IMG/VR virus record: IMGVR_UViG_3300020437_000003
Coordinates: 1-64,000 of that record
Source: a virus
DNA: 64,000 bases
Strand: one strand, 5' to 3'
Shown here: one piece after another, positions 10,656 through 60,306 of the stretch
Layout of the letters: the number at the start of each line of letters is the position of its first letter
How positions within the stretch are numbered: position 1 is the stretch's first letter
The notes under the pieces: generated by a model
Database searches by the model: none
Told to the model about the DNA's origin: nothing
The model's input: the letters and a program-made list of their open reading frames with translations, nothing else
Program-made: the position numbers and the translations under genes

Positions 10656-10978
10656 ATTACGTATTTGACATTGACGGAACAATTTGTACTAAAACTGATG
10701 GTGATTATTCTCAAGCACAACCCATTCAAGACAGAATTGATATGGTTAACAAATTGTATGAACAAGGTAATAAAATTATTTTCCAAACTGCGAGAGGTAT
10801 GGGGCGATCTAATAATTCATATAGTTATGCACACGAGGCGTTTTATGAGTTAACATATCAACAACTTAAAGACTGGGGTGTCAATTTTCACTCGTTGTTT
10901 TTGGGTAAACCCGCCGGCGATATTTACATTGATGATAAAGGAATAAAAGATGAAGACTTCTTCAACACAAGAGATTAA
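10652..10978 (+). CDS. Small HAD-superfamily phosphatase
   Basis: The 108-residue protein starts MNYVFDIDGTIC, the HAD motif I (DxDGT) with D6 as nucleophile and D8 as acid/base. FQTARGMG is a motif II-like Thr segment, and GKPAGDIYIDDKG supplies the motif III Lys and motif IV Asp pair. This is the short capsule/LPS-associated HAD type. Within a heptose pathway it could play the GmhB-like role (removal of the C7 phosphate) but it is shorter than GmhB, so this is inference. The start overlaps the nucleotidyltransferase by 4 bases. Confidence 0.82.
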   Translation: MNYVFDIDGTICTKTDGDYSQAQPIQDRIDMVNKLYEQGNKIIFQTARGMGRSNNSYSYAHEAFYELTYQQLKDWGVNFHSLFLGKPAGDIYIDDKGIKDEDFFNTRD

Positions 10979-11315
10979 GTTTGTTCCCAAAGGTTGGGGC
11001 TTTGAAAAATGGATTGTAAACTGTGAGGAATATTGCGGTAAGTTATTGTATTTTGCAAAAGACAAGCGATGTTCTTGGCATTATCATGAATTAAAAGACG
11101 AAGTATTTTACATTCAGTCGGGTAAGATACTTGTTAAATATGCGGATCACGATGCTATATCAGAGGCAAATGAAACGATACTAGGGCCCGGTGATAACTT
11201 TCACGTTTATCGCGGCTTAAGGCATCAGATGATTGCTCTTGAAGACACAGAACTATTTGAGTTCTCAACTCAGCATTTTGATTCTGACAGTTATAGAATA
11301 CAGAAGGGTGACTAA
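10950..11315 (+). CDS. Cupin-domain protein
   Basis: A 121-residue single-cupin protein. Motif 1 is SWHYHELKDEVFYIQSGK (42-59), with H44, H46 and E51 as probable metal ligands. Motif 2 is GPGDNFHVYRGLRHQM, with the last His as a ligand. The C-terminal ending FDSDSYRIQ is like a group of cupins found near sialic-acid, heptose and capsule genes. It could be an isomerase or a sugar-binding regulator; the reaction is not clear. AAAGGAAT precedes the ATG, which overlaps the HAD gene by 29 bases. Confidence 0.82.
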   Translation: MKTSSTQEIKFVPKGWGFEKWIVNCEEYCGKLLYFAKDKRCSWHYHELKDEVFYIQSGKILVKYADHDAISEANETILGPGDNFHVYRGLRHQMIALEDTELFEFSTQHFDSDSYRIQKGD

Positions 11316-12767: not shown

Positions 12768-13086
12768 AATTATATTAACAATCATTTTGACAATTTCTTT
12801 AGCGGGTAATGTAGCACTCTTTGTTTATGCTCGCGCTGCTATTGTTAGACTTTTAAGCGTTGCTGAAGAGTTATATGATTTGAAGGATATGTCTGAATCA
12901 TTAGCAGAACATCTACAATCTGTTTATGAATTAGAAATGTTTTACGGTGATGAAACGTTGGGTGGTTTGATGGAGCACGCTAGATCGTTTGCAGAACAAC
13001 AAGAAACATTTGAGTACATTTACGGATTAATAGAAGATGACAATAACGAAGGAAACACCCAAGAGGAAGAGACGGAAGCGTCGTAA
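12754..13086 (+). CDS. Membrane-anchored hypothetical protein next to late sigma factor
   Basis: A 110-residue protein with an N-terminal hydrophobic segment (about residues 5-28, IILTIILTISLAGNVALFVY), followed by helical and strongly acidic sequence ending in a Glu/Asp/Thr-rich tail. Not recognised by name. Its last 50 bases overlap the sigma factor start, so the two are probably translated together. Topology suggests a membrane-anchored cytoplasmic domain. Confidence 0.7.
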   Translation: MTNLEIILTIILTISLAGNVALFVYARAAIVRLLSVAEELYDLKDMSESLAEHLQSVYELEMFYGDETLGGLMEHARSFAEQQETFEYIYGLIEDDNNEGNTQEEETEAS

Positions 13087-13750
13087 AAATCACTATTTTA
13101 CACAAGAGCATGAAGATGCAATTGTAAGATATGCACAGACTACTTGCGTGAAAGAAAGAACAGAATTGTATGTAAGGTGGATCGAGCCGGCTTTCAATGA
13201 GATGGTTGATAAGATTGTATTTACCTATAAGTTTACAAACCTTCCAAACATAGACTTACTACGTGATGAATGTAAGATATGGTTAATGACAATTCTTGAT
13301 AAATACGATCAAAGTAAAGGCTCAAAAGCCTTCTCGTATTTTTCAGTTATTACTAAAAATTGGTTTATTCACAAAGTTAAAAAACAACAAAAACAGAATA
13401 GAACCGAAGTTAATATTGATAATATTGCTAAAAATTATGAAGAACAATATTTGTCAACTGATGAGTCTTATCTCACTGATAGAGAAAAAGATGAATTTTG
13501 GCTTAAATTTTATGAAGAACTAAAATCGTGGGATACAGCTACAATGAAAGAAAACGATTTGAAAGTTTATAAGGCCATTTGCATTCTTTTTGATTCAAAA
13601 GATGATATTGATATTTTTAACAAGAAAGCTATTTATCTATACTTACGTGAATTAACAGGCTTAAATACAAAACAGGTCGTTAACTCGCTTAAAAAGTTTA
13701 AAACAAAATATTATACTTTTAGCAATAACTGGAAAAACGGCAAGATATGA
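13037..13750 (+). CDS. T4 gp55-like late-transcription sigma factor
   Basis: A 237-residue protein with a very basic N-terminus (KRKRRKRRKNH), then a region 2-like core: ILDKYDQSKGSKAFSYFS and VITKNWFIHKVKKQQ (about 87-119). The D-x-x-K-G-S-K-A-F-S-Y-F segment is the core-polymerase and promoter-melting part of gp55-type phage sigma factors. In T4, gp55 directs host RNA polymerase to TATAAATA late promoters together with gp33 and the sliding clamp; neither of the latter is in this window. It starts within the preceding gene (50-base overlap). A phage of this type would use it for the tail and lysis genes downstream. Confidence 0.85.
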   Translation: MTITKETPKRKRRKRRKNHYFTQEHEDAIVRYAQTTCVKERTELYVRWIEPAFNEMVDKIVFTYKFTNLPNIDLLRDECKIWLMTILDKYDQSKGSKAFSYFSVITKNWFIHKVKKQQKQNRTEVNIDNIAKNYEEQYLSTDESYLTDREKDEFWLKFYEELKSWDTATMKENDLKVYKAICILFDSKDDIDIFNKKAIYLYLRELTGLNTKQVVNSLKKFKTKYYTFSNNWKNGKI

Positions 13751-13786
13751 TCATTGAAACAAAAACAGTAAGTAAGGGACTTATAA

Positions 13787-14794
13787 ATGTTTGACTCTCG
13801 TTTTTGGATGCCTGAGTCCGTTAATGCTCTCGCACCCGGGATCGATACTTTATTTATGTTTATCTTATGGGTCTCTGTAATTTCTATGGTATTGGTTTGT
13901 GGTACTATGATTTATTTAGCTATCCGCTACCGCGCATCAGCAGATGTTGCACGAGATAATCCTCCACGAGACCACCTTGGACTTGAAGTCACTTGGACAC
14001 TGATTCCTACTATTATCCTAATGTTAATTTTTTACTGGGGCGCCCATGATTATGTTCACATGTCGGTACCTAAAGCGGATGCAATGGAGATTAGAGTTAT
14101 GGGACAAAAGTGGTTTTGGACATTTGATTATCCAGAACAAGGGATTCGTTTACAAGCTACAGAAGAGATGAATGTAAAGAATACTAGAGAGGGCCGCCCA
14201 GTTGGGCTTGTTGTTCCGGTTAATACTCCCGTTCGTATAGTTGGCTCGTCAGCCGATGTGTTACATAGTATATATATCCCTTCTTTCCGTATGAAGAAAG
14301 ACGTTGTTCCAAACCGTTATACAGTAACTGGATTTCAAGCAACGCAGGAAGGTGTGTACGACCTATTCTGTACTGAATACTGTGGTACTAAACATTCAGG
14401 TATGATAACTAAGGTTACGGTGCTAAGTCAGTCAGAGTTTGTTTCATTTGTCGAAGAAATGCAAAATAAATCTGATGGTCCCGTTGACGGTGCTACGGTA
14501 TTTGCTAGTAGCGGCTGTGCGGGTTGTCATTCAGTTACTGAAGATGCACCTGCCGGCGGCATTGGCCCAGCGCTGTACGGGGTATTTGGACGTAAGGAAC
14601 GACTGACAACCGGTGATACCGTGCTGGTCGATGAGAACTATCTGCGTGAATCAATTGTAAATCCGATTGCAAAGGTGGTTGAAGGATACGGTCCGGTTAT
14701 GCCATCATACGCGGGACGACTGAGTGAAGAGGAACTAACTGCACTTGTTGTTTATTTGAAAGGACTGGGAACCAATAAGGAGGCACCAATATGA
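13787..14794 (+). CDS. coxB: Cytochrome c oxidase subunit II fused to a cytochrome c domain (caa3 type)
   Basis: A 335-residue fusion. Two membrane helices come first (about 21-46 and 68-87), with EVTWTLIPTIIL matching subunit II. Then GQKWFWTFDYP (106-116), the aromatic electron-entry region, and a complete CuA site: H160, C195, E197, C199, H203 and M206. A C-terminal cytochrome c follows, with CAGCH (244-248) for heme and M305 as probable axial ligand. In respiration this subunit passes electrons from cytochrome c through CuA to subunit I. All ligands are intact, so it looks functional. Part of it (14461-14760) is about 50% GC by hand count, well above its neighbours, hinting at host origin. 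No subunit I, III or assembly gene is present here. It lies between phage genes in the same direction and its 3' end holds the next gene's ribosome site. Confidence 0.95.
   Translation: MFDSRFWMPESVNALAPGIDTLFMFILWVSVISMVLVCGTMIYLAIRYRASADVARDNPPRDHLGLEVTWTLIPTIILMLIFYWGAHDYVHMSVPKADAMEIRVMGQKWFWTFDYPEQGIRLQATEEMNVKNTREGRPVGLVVPVNTPVRIVGSSADVLHSIYIPSFRMKKDVVPNRYTVTGFQATQEGVYDLFCTEYCGTKHSGMITKVTVLSQSEFVSFVEEMQNKSDGPVDGATVFASSGCAGCHSVTEDAPAGGIGPALYGVFGRKERLTTGDTVLVDENYLRESIVNPIAKVVEGYGPVMPSYAGRLSEEELTALVVYLKGLGTNKEAPI
14777..14783 (+). promoter_or_regulatory. Strong Shine-Dalgarno site inside the 3' end of the oxidase gene
   Basis: AAGGAGG lies 7 bases before ATG 14791 and inside the codons for the oxidase's last residues (T-N-K-E-A-P-I). 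It decides the start of the next gene and shows that the oxidase gene is physically interlocked with a phage gene. Confidence 0.8.
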
Positions 14795-15096
14795 GTAACA
14801 ACGATTTGGAAACACTGATGTCAGAGGCGCTTGGTAACATACGAAATGATCGTAAAGTTGCTCGTGAGTTTTTAAATGAAATTGCTAATTTAATATCTGG
14901 AGACCCGGAACAAAATAAATATCTTAGCCCCGTTGCGGCAAAGCATATTGAAACACTACAACGCTCCAATGAACAGTTGGTTAAAATCATATCTATTCAG
15001 TCAAAGAAAACTGACTCTAGCTATGAACTTACTGATGTCGATAGAGAAAATTTATTTGACATGATTCAAGAAGAGTCCCAAAGGGAGAATAACTGA
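14791..15096 (+). CDS. Small hypothetical protein upstream of the amidase
   Basis: A 101-residue, predominantly helical, charged protein (VAREFLNEIANLIS, then AAKHIETLQRSNEQLVKIISI), probably with a short coiled coil around residues 45-70. No motif is recognised. It starts in an ATGA overlap with the oxidase gene, has a very strong ribosome site, and overlaps the amidase by one base. It is likely a phage structural or assembly protein, by position only. Confidence 0.7.
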   Translation: MSNNDLETLMSEALGNIRNDRKVAREFLNEIANLISGDPEQNKYLSPVAAKHIETLQRSNEQLVKIISIQSKKTDSSYELTDVDRENLFDMIQEESQRENN

Positions 15097-16415
15097 TGAT
15101 CAAGGATCTTGATGGACTCAAGTCATTACCAGAATTAACTACTCCAGAAGACGGGTTTGATTTATTAAAAGAGGCCGCTGTAAATGCGTCTGTTGGTAAA
15201 AAAGATAAACTCGAAGGAAAGGATCAATTTAACTGTATAGTTTTGCATAAAGTCAGTGACACACCATTTAGCCGCTCCGAATTGTCAGCTATTTTTGGTG
15301 CAGTTATAGGTGAGGGAACTAGTGAATATTATGGCTATAGGGTTAGGATAACTGATGAAGATAGTCCTCACGCATTTTATCCCATTCCGTGTGACCTTAG
15401 TTCTGCTAATGATACATCAGTACCATTAGTTATTGCATCGATGCATACGCTTATAGCAACTACCGAAGAATTAGAAGAGCTTGATACCTGTATTGTTAAA
15501 TTTAATAAAGTTGGTGGCAAGTATGATTTATCATATGGCTTCTTTATTAAAAAAACAGGTAATAATCAAAACTTTTACCAGAATATATTACAAAAAAATC
15601 CATATCTAAGAGAAGAGTGTAGTGATGCTGGTGGGTTGTTTAATGCACAGTTGAGAACAATTGGTAGTTCGGGTTCTGGTGGTAGAAAAACTGGTACTTA
15701 TGACGGTGGTAGTTTTGAAGGCATTAATTATTATGCAGAACCAACAGACGACAATCCTTTTGGTCTTAATCACGGCGGAAATTTAAATCCAACAAATGTT
15801 AAAAATATTATGATTCATTACTCAGTTACTGCTAACATTAAAAATTGTGTTGATGTTTTAGGTAAAAGTGGAACAGATTCATATCATTATTTGATAGAGC
15901 CGAACGGATACTATGTAGAAGCAATTAGTACTGATTTGAAAGCACAACATGCAGGCGGAACCGCTGCTAATAACAATTCAAATACAATCGGTATATGTTT
16001 GATGAACCTGTCGAGATATGATGCAGATGCTGGTGTTCCTACCTTCGTAGGAAAAGAAATTGATGTTGCGGCAGAAGGTGGTCCACAAAAATTTACAATT
16101 CCCTCAAAAGATAAATGGTTTAGGTCAGGAGGTAAAATCTGGCAGCCTTTCCCACAACAGCAAATAAATGCCTTGTATGCAGTTATAGCAGAGGTGCTTA
16201 GTAAGTTTGATAATATTGAATTTATTTGCGGTCATGAAGATGACACAACTCACAGATTAGGAAAGGAAGATCCGGGCCCGGCCTTTGATCAATTTTGGCC
16301 AAACTTACTAAATATTACTAATAATAATGGAAAAAATTTACAACTAAGAGATATATCTGAGCCCGGTATTTACGAATCTCAATGGAAGAAAAGAAAAAAA
16401 GCCGGAACAAGCTAA
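15096..16415 (+). CDS. N-acetylmuramoyl-L-alanine amidase (Amidase_2/PGRP fold), possible baseplate hub enzyme
   Basis: A 439-residue protein. The C-terminal half (about 225-415) is an Amidase_2 domain: IMIHYSVTA with H241, SYHYLIEPNGYY, and GHEDDTTHRLGKEDPGPAFD with H380 and a D-P-G-P-A-F end, fitting the zinc site of T7-lysozyme-like amidases. These cut the lactyl-alanine bond in peptidoglycan. The N-terminal half (about 40-190) looks beta-rich with YGYRVRITDEDSPHAFYPIP, which could be an OB-like hub domain as in T4 gp5, but this is uncertain. The location at the head of the baseplate genes suggests a tail-associated enzyme that opens the wall at injection, rather than a lysis enzyme. Confidence 0.85.
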   Translation: MIKDLDGLKSLPELTTPEDGFDLLKEAAVNASVGKKDKLEGKDQFNCIVLHKVSDTPFSRSELSAIFGAVIGEGTSEYYGYRVRITDEDSPHAFYPIPCDLSSANDTSVPLVIASMHTLIATTEELEELDTCIVKFNKVGGKYDLSYGFFIKKTGNNQNFYQNILQKNPYLREECSDAGGLFNAQLRTIGSSGSGGRKTGTYDGGSFEGINYYAEPTDDNPFGLNHGGNLNPTNVKNIMIHYSVTANIKNCVDVLGKSGTDSYHYLIEPNGYYVEAISTDLKAQHAGGTAANNNSNTIGICLMNLSRYDADAGVPTFVGKEIDVAAEGGPQKFTIPSKDKWFRSGGKIWQPFPQQQINALYAVIAEVLSKFDNIEFICGHEDDTTHRLGKEDPGPAFDQFWPNLLNITNNNGKNLQLRDISEPGIYESQWKKRKKAGTS

Positions 16416-58817: not shown

Positions 58818-59170
58818 TGAAAATGAAAAGGTCAGAACTTAAGCAAGTCATCAAAGAAGAGTTAGAATCAGTTCTAACTGAAAGATTATCTCAGAGAGAA
58901 TTTCGACAAGAAGTTTTTAACTTAGCAAAAGCATTTGATAATCCTGAATATGTAAAAATGGTTTTAAAGCCTCTAAAAAATTTATATTCTAAATTGGATA
59001 TAGGTAATGAGAAAATAAAAAGAAGATATGCTGAAGATGTCATTCGTGCTGCTTTCTCTACATACTCAGATACAGAAGCACAAGACTTGCTATCACAGCT
59101 TACGGCTGATCAACCATACACACGATATGGTGATAAGATGGCTGCAGTAATTAAGGATACATATAAATAA
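58817..59170 (+). CDS. Small hypothetical protein with shared N-terminal tag
   Basis: A 117-residue protein. KMKRSELKQVIKEELESV (2-19) is the shared tag, with I-K-E in the middle. The rest is helical with conserved-looking DNPEYVKMVLKPLKN and SDTEAQDLLSQLT. Starts at the final A of the fused nuclease-ATPase stop codon. Function unknown; it might be packaged in the virion. Confidence 0.65.
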   Translation: MKMKRSELKQVIKEELESVLTERLSQREFRQEVFNLAKAFDNPEYVKMVLKPLKNLYSKLDIGNEKIKRRYAEDVIRAAFSTYSDTEAQDLLSQLTADQPYTRYGDKMAAVIKDTYK

Positions 59171-60306
59171 TGTCTAACAACGATAACAACGAATTTGATT
59201 TTCTGCCTCCCGCGGAACCACCACCCTCCTTTAATCAGGAGAAAGACCACTATCACGAAGAAGTTGATGCTGAGGATTTCGGAATGGTCGAAGATTTTGG
59301 ATTACAGATGGAATACTCTGATGAAGATTTACTCCCAGAAAATACCGCTCCTTCTTCAATTAATGTGGGCTTTGTTGGCGTCGGCGGTGGAGGCAACAAA
59401 ATGGCTAACGCTTTTATTGAGCTTGGCTTTAACAAAACATTGCTTGTTAATACAACAGGCAAAGACATTCCTAAGAATGTTGAAGAGGATCACGTTGTCC
59501 TCATTCCCGATGCCGACGGTATTGGCAAAAATGTAGAATATGGAAAAGAGGTATTAACACAAAATGGAGCGATTGTTGAAGATGCTCTGCGCATCAAACT
59601 TGGTAAAGTTGATTGGTTATTCGTCCTTGCTGGCGGTGGCGGTGGGACCGGTAGTTCTGTCACTGCTCTTCATCCTGTGTTTGAGCGGTACCTTCGCTCT
59701 GTTCAAGCTTCTGGGCAAGTAGTGTATGTCACATCTTGGCCAACAGCACAAGAAAATCTCAACCCCACAATAGCTAGAAATGCTCTCACTCTTGCGAATG
59801 ATGTGTCAAGACATCCACACATCATTCTTGATAACGAACGAGCAACAAGATTACTTCGTGGTAGAATTGGTATGCTGGGTATGTATCCGGTCGCCAACAC
59901 ACAATTTGCAAAGTCATTAGCCCAAGTTTTGAAACTCTCCAATGAGGATTCACCGATCCAGTCTTTTGATAGTAAGGACTTAGAAACTTGTCTGGGCAAT
60001 GACGGTCGTGCCTTCATGGGCTCAACTATGATTAAAGATCCAAATACTGGAAAGCTTGGATCGGTGATCCTCCATAACTGCATGAATCGTTCTGCCTGTC
60101 CTCCACCCAAAGGTAAGGCTGCAGCAGGATCATTGGTGCTGGTTGTATCAGAAGAGATGGTAGCTGACCCAAGAGTTAGCAAAAATATTGAGTCGGCAAT
60201 CGCTTATGTCGGCGGTCGATGTGAGACACTTTTCTCTGGTGTTTATGTCAGAAAAAATGTGCCCGGTTTGATTGCGATACTAAGTATGAATGGATTGGCA
60301 ACATAG
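59170..60306 (+). CDS. FtsZ/tubulin-like GTPase
   Basis: A 378-residue protein with the tubulin/FtsZ core. Its first 62 residues are an acidic, Pro-rich tail. Then NVGFVGVGGGGNK (65-77), the T1 nucleotide loop, TLLVNTTGKDI, and AGGGGGTGSS (154-163), the tubulin signature G-G-G-T-G-S. LDNERATRLL (220-229) resembles the FtsZ P-N-[DE]-R-L-L helix. SFDSKDLE (265-272) aligns with the FtsZ T7 loop N-x-D-F-A-D-V, with Asp at 267 and 270 and Asn replaced by Ser. The T7 Asp residues complete GTP hydrolysis across the filament interface, so it may polymerise and turn over GTP. The C-terminal FtsZ tail that binds FtsA/ZipA is missing; the chain ends soon after the core. Role: see findings. Confidence 0.85.
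   Translation: MSNNDNNEFDFLPPAEPPPSFNQEKDHYHEEVDAEDFGMVEDFGLQMEYSDEDLLPENTAPSSINVGFVGVGGGGNKMANAFIELGFNKTLLVNTTGKDIPKNVEEDHVVLIPDADGIGKNVEYGKEVLTQNGAIVEDALRIKLGKVDWLFVLAGGGGGTGSSVTALHPVFERYLRSVQASGQVVYVTSWPTAQENLNPTIARNALTLANDVSRHPHIILDNERATRLLRGRIGMLGMYPVANTQFAKSLAQVLKLSNEDSPIQSFDSKDLETCLGNDGRAFMGSTMIKDPNTGKLGSVILHNCMNRSACPPPKGKAAAGSLVLVVSEEMVADPRVSKNIESAIAYVGGRCETLFSGVYVRKNVPGLIAILSMNGLAT
60283..60304 (+). repeat. 22-bp near-duplicate, copy 1 (3' end of the GTPase gene)
   Basis: Bases 60283-60304 (agtatgaatggattggcaac and two more bases) recur at 60598-60619 with one mismatch (G to A). Here they encode the last residues of the GTPase (S-M-N-G-L-A-T). Confidence 0.85.

Follow-up and report, generated by a model that had tools for sequence, protein, structure and literature searches.

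A gene for subunit II of a caa3-type oxidase (coxB), fused to a cytochrome c domain, lies in the genome of a T4-like marine phage. It is probably a respiratory auxiliary metabolic gene, with a product that joins the caa3 oxidase of the host and sustains respiration during infection. The gene was found in the window analysed here, a stretch of 64,000 nt (64 kb) taken from a virus record of 145,971 bp (IMGVR_UViG_3300020437_000003), and the features at and around it are as follows.

13037..13750 (+), conserved phage gene (237 aa) at the left edge of the insertion (591 IMG/VR relatives confirmed)
13774..13779 (+), AAGGGA, judged from its sequence the likely ribosome-binding site for coxB, within the 36-nt spacer 13751-13786
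13787..14794 (+), coxB-cytochrome c fusion gene (335 aa), one open frame with profile and PDB matches
14084..14425 (+), CuA (cupredoxin) domain, residues 100-213 (COX2 match at 100-207, modelled strands to 213)
14486..14767 (+), cytochrome c domain, residues 234-327, with C244-A-G-C247-H248 and M305 (PF00034 match, invariant motif)
14777..14783 (+), AAGGAGG inside the 3' end of coxB, likely ribosome-binding site for the gene that follows (putative function)
14791..15096 (+), conserved phage gene (101 aa) at the right edge of the insertion, overlapping the coxB stop by 4 nt
15096..16415 (+), N-acetylmuramoyl-L-alanine amidase, endolysin-like (PF01510, 3.2e-16; PHROG endolysin/amidase families)

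An earlier examination of the letters and open reading frames (the sequence-only reading) had described an intact 335-residue oxidase subunit II-cytochrome c frame at 13787-14794, with two membrane helices, six CuA ligands, a CAGCH motif and a distal methionine, and this description was confirmed throughout. The predicted protein matches COX2 (PF00116, 6.7e-20), COX2_TM (PF02790, 5.5e-11) and Cytochrom_C (PF00034, 1.9e-8) above their cut-offs, and scores 166 bits against the CoxB equivalog TIGR02866 of NCBIfam (curated cut-off 147.7). The COX2_TM match spans residues 6-81, and the AlphaFold model (mean pLDDT 77.8) has long helices at 17-50 and 63-93. The CuA ligands (H160, C195, E197, C199, H203 and M206), the heme motif (C244, C247 and H248) and the distal M305 are all invariant in comparison with six cellular caa3-type CoxBs. 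Subunit II of the Thermus caa3 oxidase (2yev_B) is the top PDB match both by sequence and by fold. PHROGs holds no family for the protein, and a search of the viral structure library gave no CoxB-like match, the top hit being a giant-virus blue copper protein with a TM-score of 0.20 by query length. Promoter scans near coxB found no enrichment over shuffled sequences, and the TATAAAT motif before the gene overlaps the coxB start codon.

The carrier of coxB is a bona fide T4-like marine phage, its genome size being about 187 kb. All 145,971 bp of the record are also contained in a second, longer one, IMGVR_UViG_3300038530_003085 (187,393 bp), which differs from it there by 6 mismatches (99.996% identity), although the two records may share a source sample, and the joints of coxB are identical in both. 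The two ends of the longer record share a 465-bp repeat (97.6% identity), which fits a circularly permuted genome that is nearly complete. The phage setting claimed by the sequence-only reading was borne out by genes for terminase, a T4-type gp20 portal, the gp23 head protein and tail sheath in the record, and by those for a baseplate wedge protein (24567) and the amidase in the window, where an endonuclease, a primase and an SbcC-like protein are also encoded. At least 595 relatives of the gp20 portal are present in IMG/VR, and its nearest deposited phages, at about 40%, are Microcystis phage Mel-JY01 and the Flavobacterium phages vB_FspM_immuto. Ribonucleotide reductase is also encoded, and the T4-type structural genes coexist with a replicative polymerase of the DNA polymerase III alpha type (L006 7735-11166; record position 111735-115169).

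The insertion site was compared with 79 other loci in IMG/VR, the nearest ones for the upstream 237-aa gene. In all 79, coxB is absent and a homologue of the 101-aa gene directly follows the 237-aa gene, and it is exactly at this joint that coxB sits in the window, the insertion being exact to the gene. The upstream gene is 92–93% identical to that of the window in two of these loci (L070 and L071), and in L070 the empty joint has the sequence ..AACGGAAACATATGAGTAAT... On the left of the insertion, the window has ..AACGGCAAGATATGATCATTG.., followed by the 36-nt spacer with AAGGGA and then by coxB, the 3' end of which runs into the 101-aa gene as ..AAGGAGGCACCAATATGAGTAAC... At the cellular coxB/ctaD joint of the closest cellular homologue (UBA2957, see below), the sequence is ..AAGGAGGCTCCGATATGAGCACT.., and the AAGGAGG motif is present there as well. 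To judge from this comparison of joints, insertion of coxB preserved both the stop/start overlap and the purine-rich motif. The heptamer ATATGAG occurs both at the empty phage site and at the cellular joint, from which capture of coxB through microhomology may plausibly be inferred, but no more than that, a shared run of seven bases at a start codon being weak evidence. The sequence-only reading had named the upstream gene a late sigma factor, which is unproven: it is a conserved phage gene with no match in Pfam, PHROGs or the PDB sequences. Phage tail genes were also said to flank coxB, and while phage structural genes are indeed present in the record, what lies directly downstream is the 101-aa gene, not a tail gene, and then the amidase, the relatives of which in IMG/VR come from the same virus only.

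A cellular origin, proposed earlier, is supported by database comparison. Among 84,980 genomes, the best match was the metagenome-assembled genome Deltaproteobacteria bacterium UBA2957, listed at NCBI as unclassified Deltaproteobacteria, with 82% aa identity over the full length (the next match was 42%). Its coxB lies in a SCO-coxB-ctaD-coxC-coxD operon (neighbours named from their sequences), in a region of about 57% GC, and is the single CoxB of caa3 type in that genome. Within 63 genomes of the order of UBA2957, there is one further homologue (61%) besides a group with 40–46% identity. In the tree, the phage genes are nested among cellular CoxBs: the two phage sequences (a second phage copy is described below) group together (97/48, the SH-aLRT support of this pair being weak), then with UBA2957 (99/96) and then with the 61% homologue (100/100). 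From these comparisons, the phage coxB derives from a cellular gene of a little-known deltaproteobacterial lineage. No identical chromosomal gene was found, and the reading of coxB as a contaminating chromosomal copy was rejected. When 20 kb of phage DNA around coxB was compared with the UBA2957 genome, the match extended across coxB only (71%), and the 63 genomes of the donor order likewise matched this DNA at coxB only. We infer that the host of the phage belongs to the donor lineage, a link made through coxB alone since the order matched this phage DNA nowhere else.

A second copy of the gene occurs in IMGVR_UViG_3300020391_000360 (29,867 bp), where coxB is 89% identical over its first 112 residues and is then cut by the end of the contig. 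About 25 genes of this contig follow the gene order of the 187-kb genome, most of them with 55–92% amino-acid identity, and the second phage therefore belongs to the same phage group. Its coxB sits after a FabG-like gene in a sugar-gene cluster and not after the 237-aa gene, so the gene either moved or was acquired twice. Neither the single protein nor an alignment of caa3 CoxBs, each used to scan 2.9 million viral contigs, detected a coxB beyond these two phage lineages. For the subunit I family, 87 pattern hits in IMG/VR yielded no relatives, which argues against a general contamination of the collection by oxidase operons. Matches to entries labeled as phage in INPHARED were set aside, as they reach only 25–28% identity, two are annotated as cyoA, and they are probably bacterial contamination. 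The INPHARED records with subunit II-like stretches are OR851493.1, OR845150.1, OR844662.1, OR848694.1, OR846801.1, CAKLQH020000004.1 and CAKLQF020000002.1.

The GC content of a 300-base part of coxB was earlier put, by hand count, at about 50% and above that of its surroundings. For the whole gene it is higher (44%, against a mean of 36% for 40 window genes), but at the top of the range and not clearly outside it. The GC3 of the phage coxB is 0.35, compared with a mean of 0.28 for phage genes and 0.65 for the cellular coxB, and its codons fit phage usage better than that of cellular genes, with the second phage copy intermediate. Between the phage and UBA2957 genes, pS is 0.87 (synonymous sites are saturated) and pN is 0.11, and when differences were polarised by the 61% homologue, 8 derived residues were assigned to the phage protein and 17 to the cellular one. 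Differences between the two proteins affect 12/93 positions of the cytochrome c domain, 23/132 of the CuA domain, 8/24 of the second transmembrane helix (TM2) and 6/13 of the linker between CuA and cytochrome domains. The dN/dS between the two phage copies, calculated over 112 codons, is 0.043 and may reflect purifying selection in phages, although a phage-only branch is weakly supported. Apparently, coxB has been in phages long enough for its codons to change with the protein intact. The true donor may be nearer than UBA2957, in which case part of the codon change and conservation could have arisen in cells; given the weak SH-aLRT value for the phage pair, part of the conservation may reflect time spent in an unsampled cellular lineage.

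No match to the subunit I (COX1) and SCO copper chaperone families was found in the virus records examined, nor to the subunit III (COX3) family in the two virus records tested. The operon with subunits I and III is thus absent from the phage and present at the cellular homologue, and is a feature of the cellular loci and not of the protein family. With none of these partners found in the phage, a lone CoxB needs those of the host, and as UBA2957 has a single CoxB of caa3 type, its oxidase could take in a subunit made by the phage. The absence of these partners, together with the 82% identity to a cellular subunit II, would make a hybrid oxidase that sustains respiration the most economical function, with expression and assembly of the protein presumed from its gene. 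In such a scheme, a T4-like marine phage would have taken coxB alone from a deltaproteobacterial caa3-oxidase operon, and during infection the phage subunit II would enter the host membrane, receive heme c and copper through host factors, and pair with host subunits I and III. The electron route from cytochrome c through CuA and heme a to O2 would be kept, and proton pumping would go on even though the host subunit II was no longer being replaced. By analogy with the electron-transport genes of cyanophages, the benefit may be steady proton pumping and ATP in infection.

Other explanations of the gene were weighed against this one. The sequence-only reading had suggested that the phage may keep respiration running, swap the electron donor of the host or assemble a hybrid oxidase; the first and the last agree with the function favoured here, whereas a swap of donor finds no support. 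Subunit II is the electron entry point, and the linker and TM2 are among the more altered parts of the phage protein, so that a hybrid oxidase with another donor or altered control, as opposed to a simple replacement of the subunit, might be envisaged. The cytochrome c domain, however, is the functional part least changed, which favours an unchanged electron donor over rewiring, and several of the TM2 differences arose on the cellular side; we judge this reading improbable, and the related proposal that infection redirects respiratory electrons through a hybrid caa3 oxidase of altered donor or control is only a little less so. It is also unlikely that coxB is a passenger, gained by recombination, carried without much benefit and heading for loss. 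Its rarity (two lineages in the 2.9 million contigs, and missing from all close relatives) would fit such a history, but the frame is intact with all ligands retained, and the codons have been largely exchanged while the protein is barely altered, in keeping with the low dN/dS between the phage copies.

The lack of partner subunits in the phage could suit a decoy, a lone subunit II that competes with that of the host and blocks assembly of the oxidase, or that merely binds copper or heme, but a blocker needs no fully retained CuA site, heme motif and distal methionine, and we hold this to be very improbable. Finally, the composition of coxB, at the upper edge of the range of phage genes, might be taken to mean that a bacterial coxB fragment was fused to a phage contig during assembly. 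Against this stand the same joints in the second record, with 6 mismatches over 146 kb, an insertion that is exact to the gene when set beside 79 empty loci and retains a 4-nt overlap, a codon usage that leans to the phage, the lack of any known identical cellular gene together with a similarity to UBA2957 that stops at the gene ends, and a separate, diverged copy in the second phage. An assembly artefact, for which read mapping had earlier been proposed as a check, is hardly credible.

Cyanophages carry the electron-transport genes psbA, PTOX and plastocyanin, and cyanophage psbA replaces D1. For photosynthesis, there is ample documentation that phages control the energy supply of their hosts, whereas evidence from heterotrophs is thin and partly read-based. 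Like the cyanophage genes, coxB is a single, host-derived electron-transport component in a T4-like phage that would be used with host partners; unlike them, it belongs to respiration and not photosynthesis, has a deltaproteobacterial donor, and is known here from sequence alone. With the subunit II of cellular caa3 oxidases (Thermus 2yev chain B and UBA2957 CoxB), it shares the domain order, two helices, CuA ligands, and CXXCH with a distal methionine, but differs in standing alone, without SCO, ctaD and coxC, and in its partly phage-like codon usage. Terminal-oxidase and related genes have been assigned to viruses from metagenomes before, including ccoP, cydAB and norB in a published table (PMC12713726), norB together with nirK (PMC8115048), and, from reads, subunit I of a cbb3 oxidase in a marine viral fraction (PMC3474794). 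These represent other enzymes or subunits, none of them a CuA-containing subunit II, and no earlier phage coxB was found in the open-licence papers searched. Auxiliary metabolic genes are a known kind of phage gene, and the new element would be one predicted to encode a CuA-containing subunit II for a heme-copper oxidase of respiration. The gene is intact and adapted in composition, and its insertion site and donor lineage are both clear, which makes it a testable case of virus-supported aerobic respiration. It may also point to the hosts of these marine T4-like phages, which form a widespread group.

Several other genes of the window deserve mention. At 59170-60306 (+), a 378-aa protein carries a tubulin/FtsZ GTPase domain (PF00091, scoring 33.5 bits where 33 is the cut-off), with matches to FtsZ structures in the PDB (to 8.9e-11) and to 3zid; among deposited phages only Bacillus phage G has a match, and such a tubulin-like gene is unusual for a T4-like phage. 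Between 2571 and 12277 (+) lies a surface-sugar cluster with genes for glycosyltransferases, an FkbM methyltransferase, a sulfotransferase (PF03567), and heptose kinase-/nucleotidyltransferase-like and dTDP-glucose dehydratase-like proteins, and the corresponding cluster of the second phage (IMGVR_UViG_3300020391_000360) is largely different. A cupin protein is encoded at 10950-11315 (+), and its PHROG match is annotated as cysteine dioxygenase (5.6e-61).
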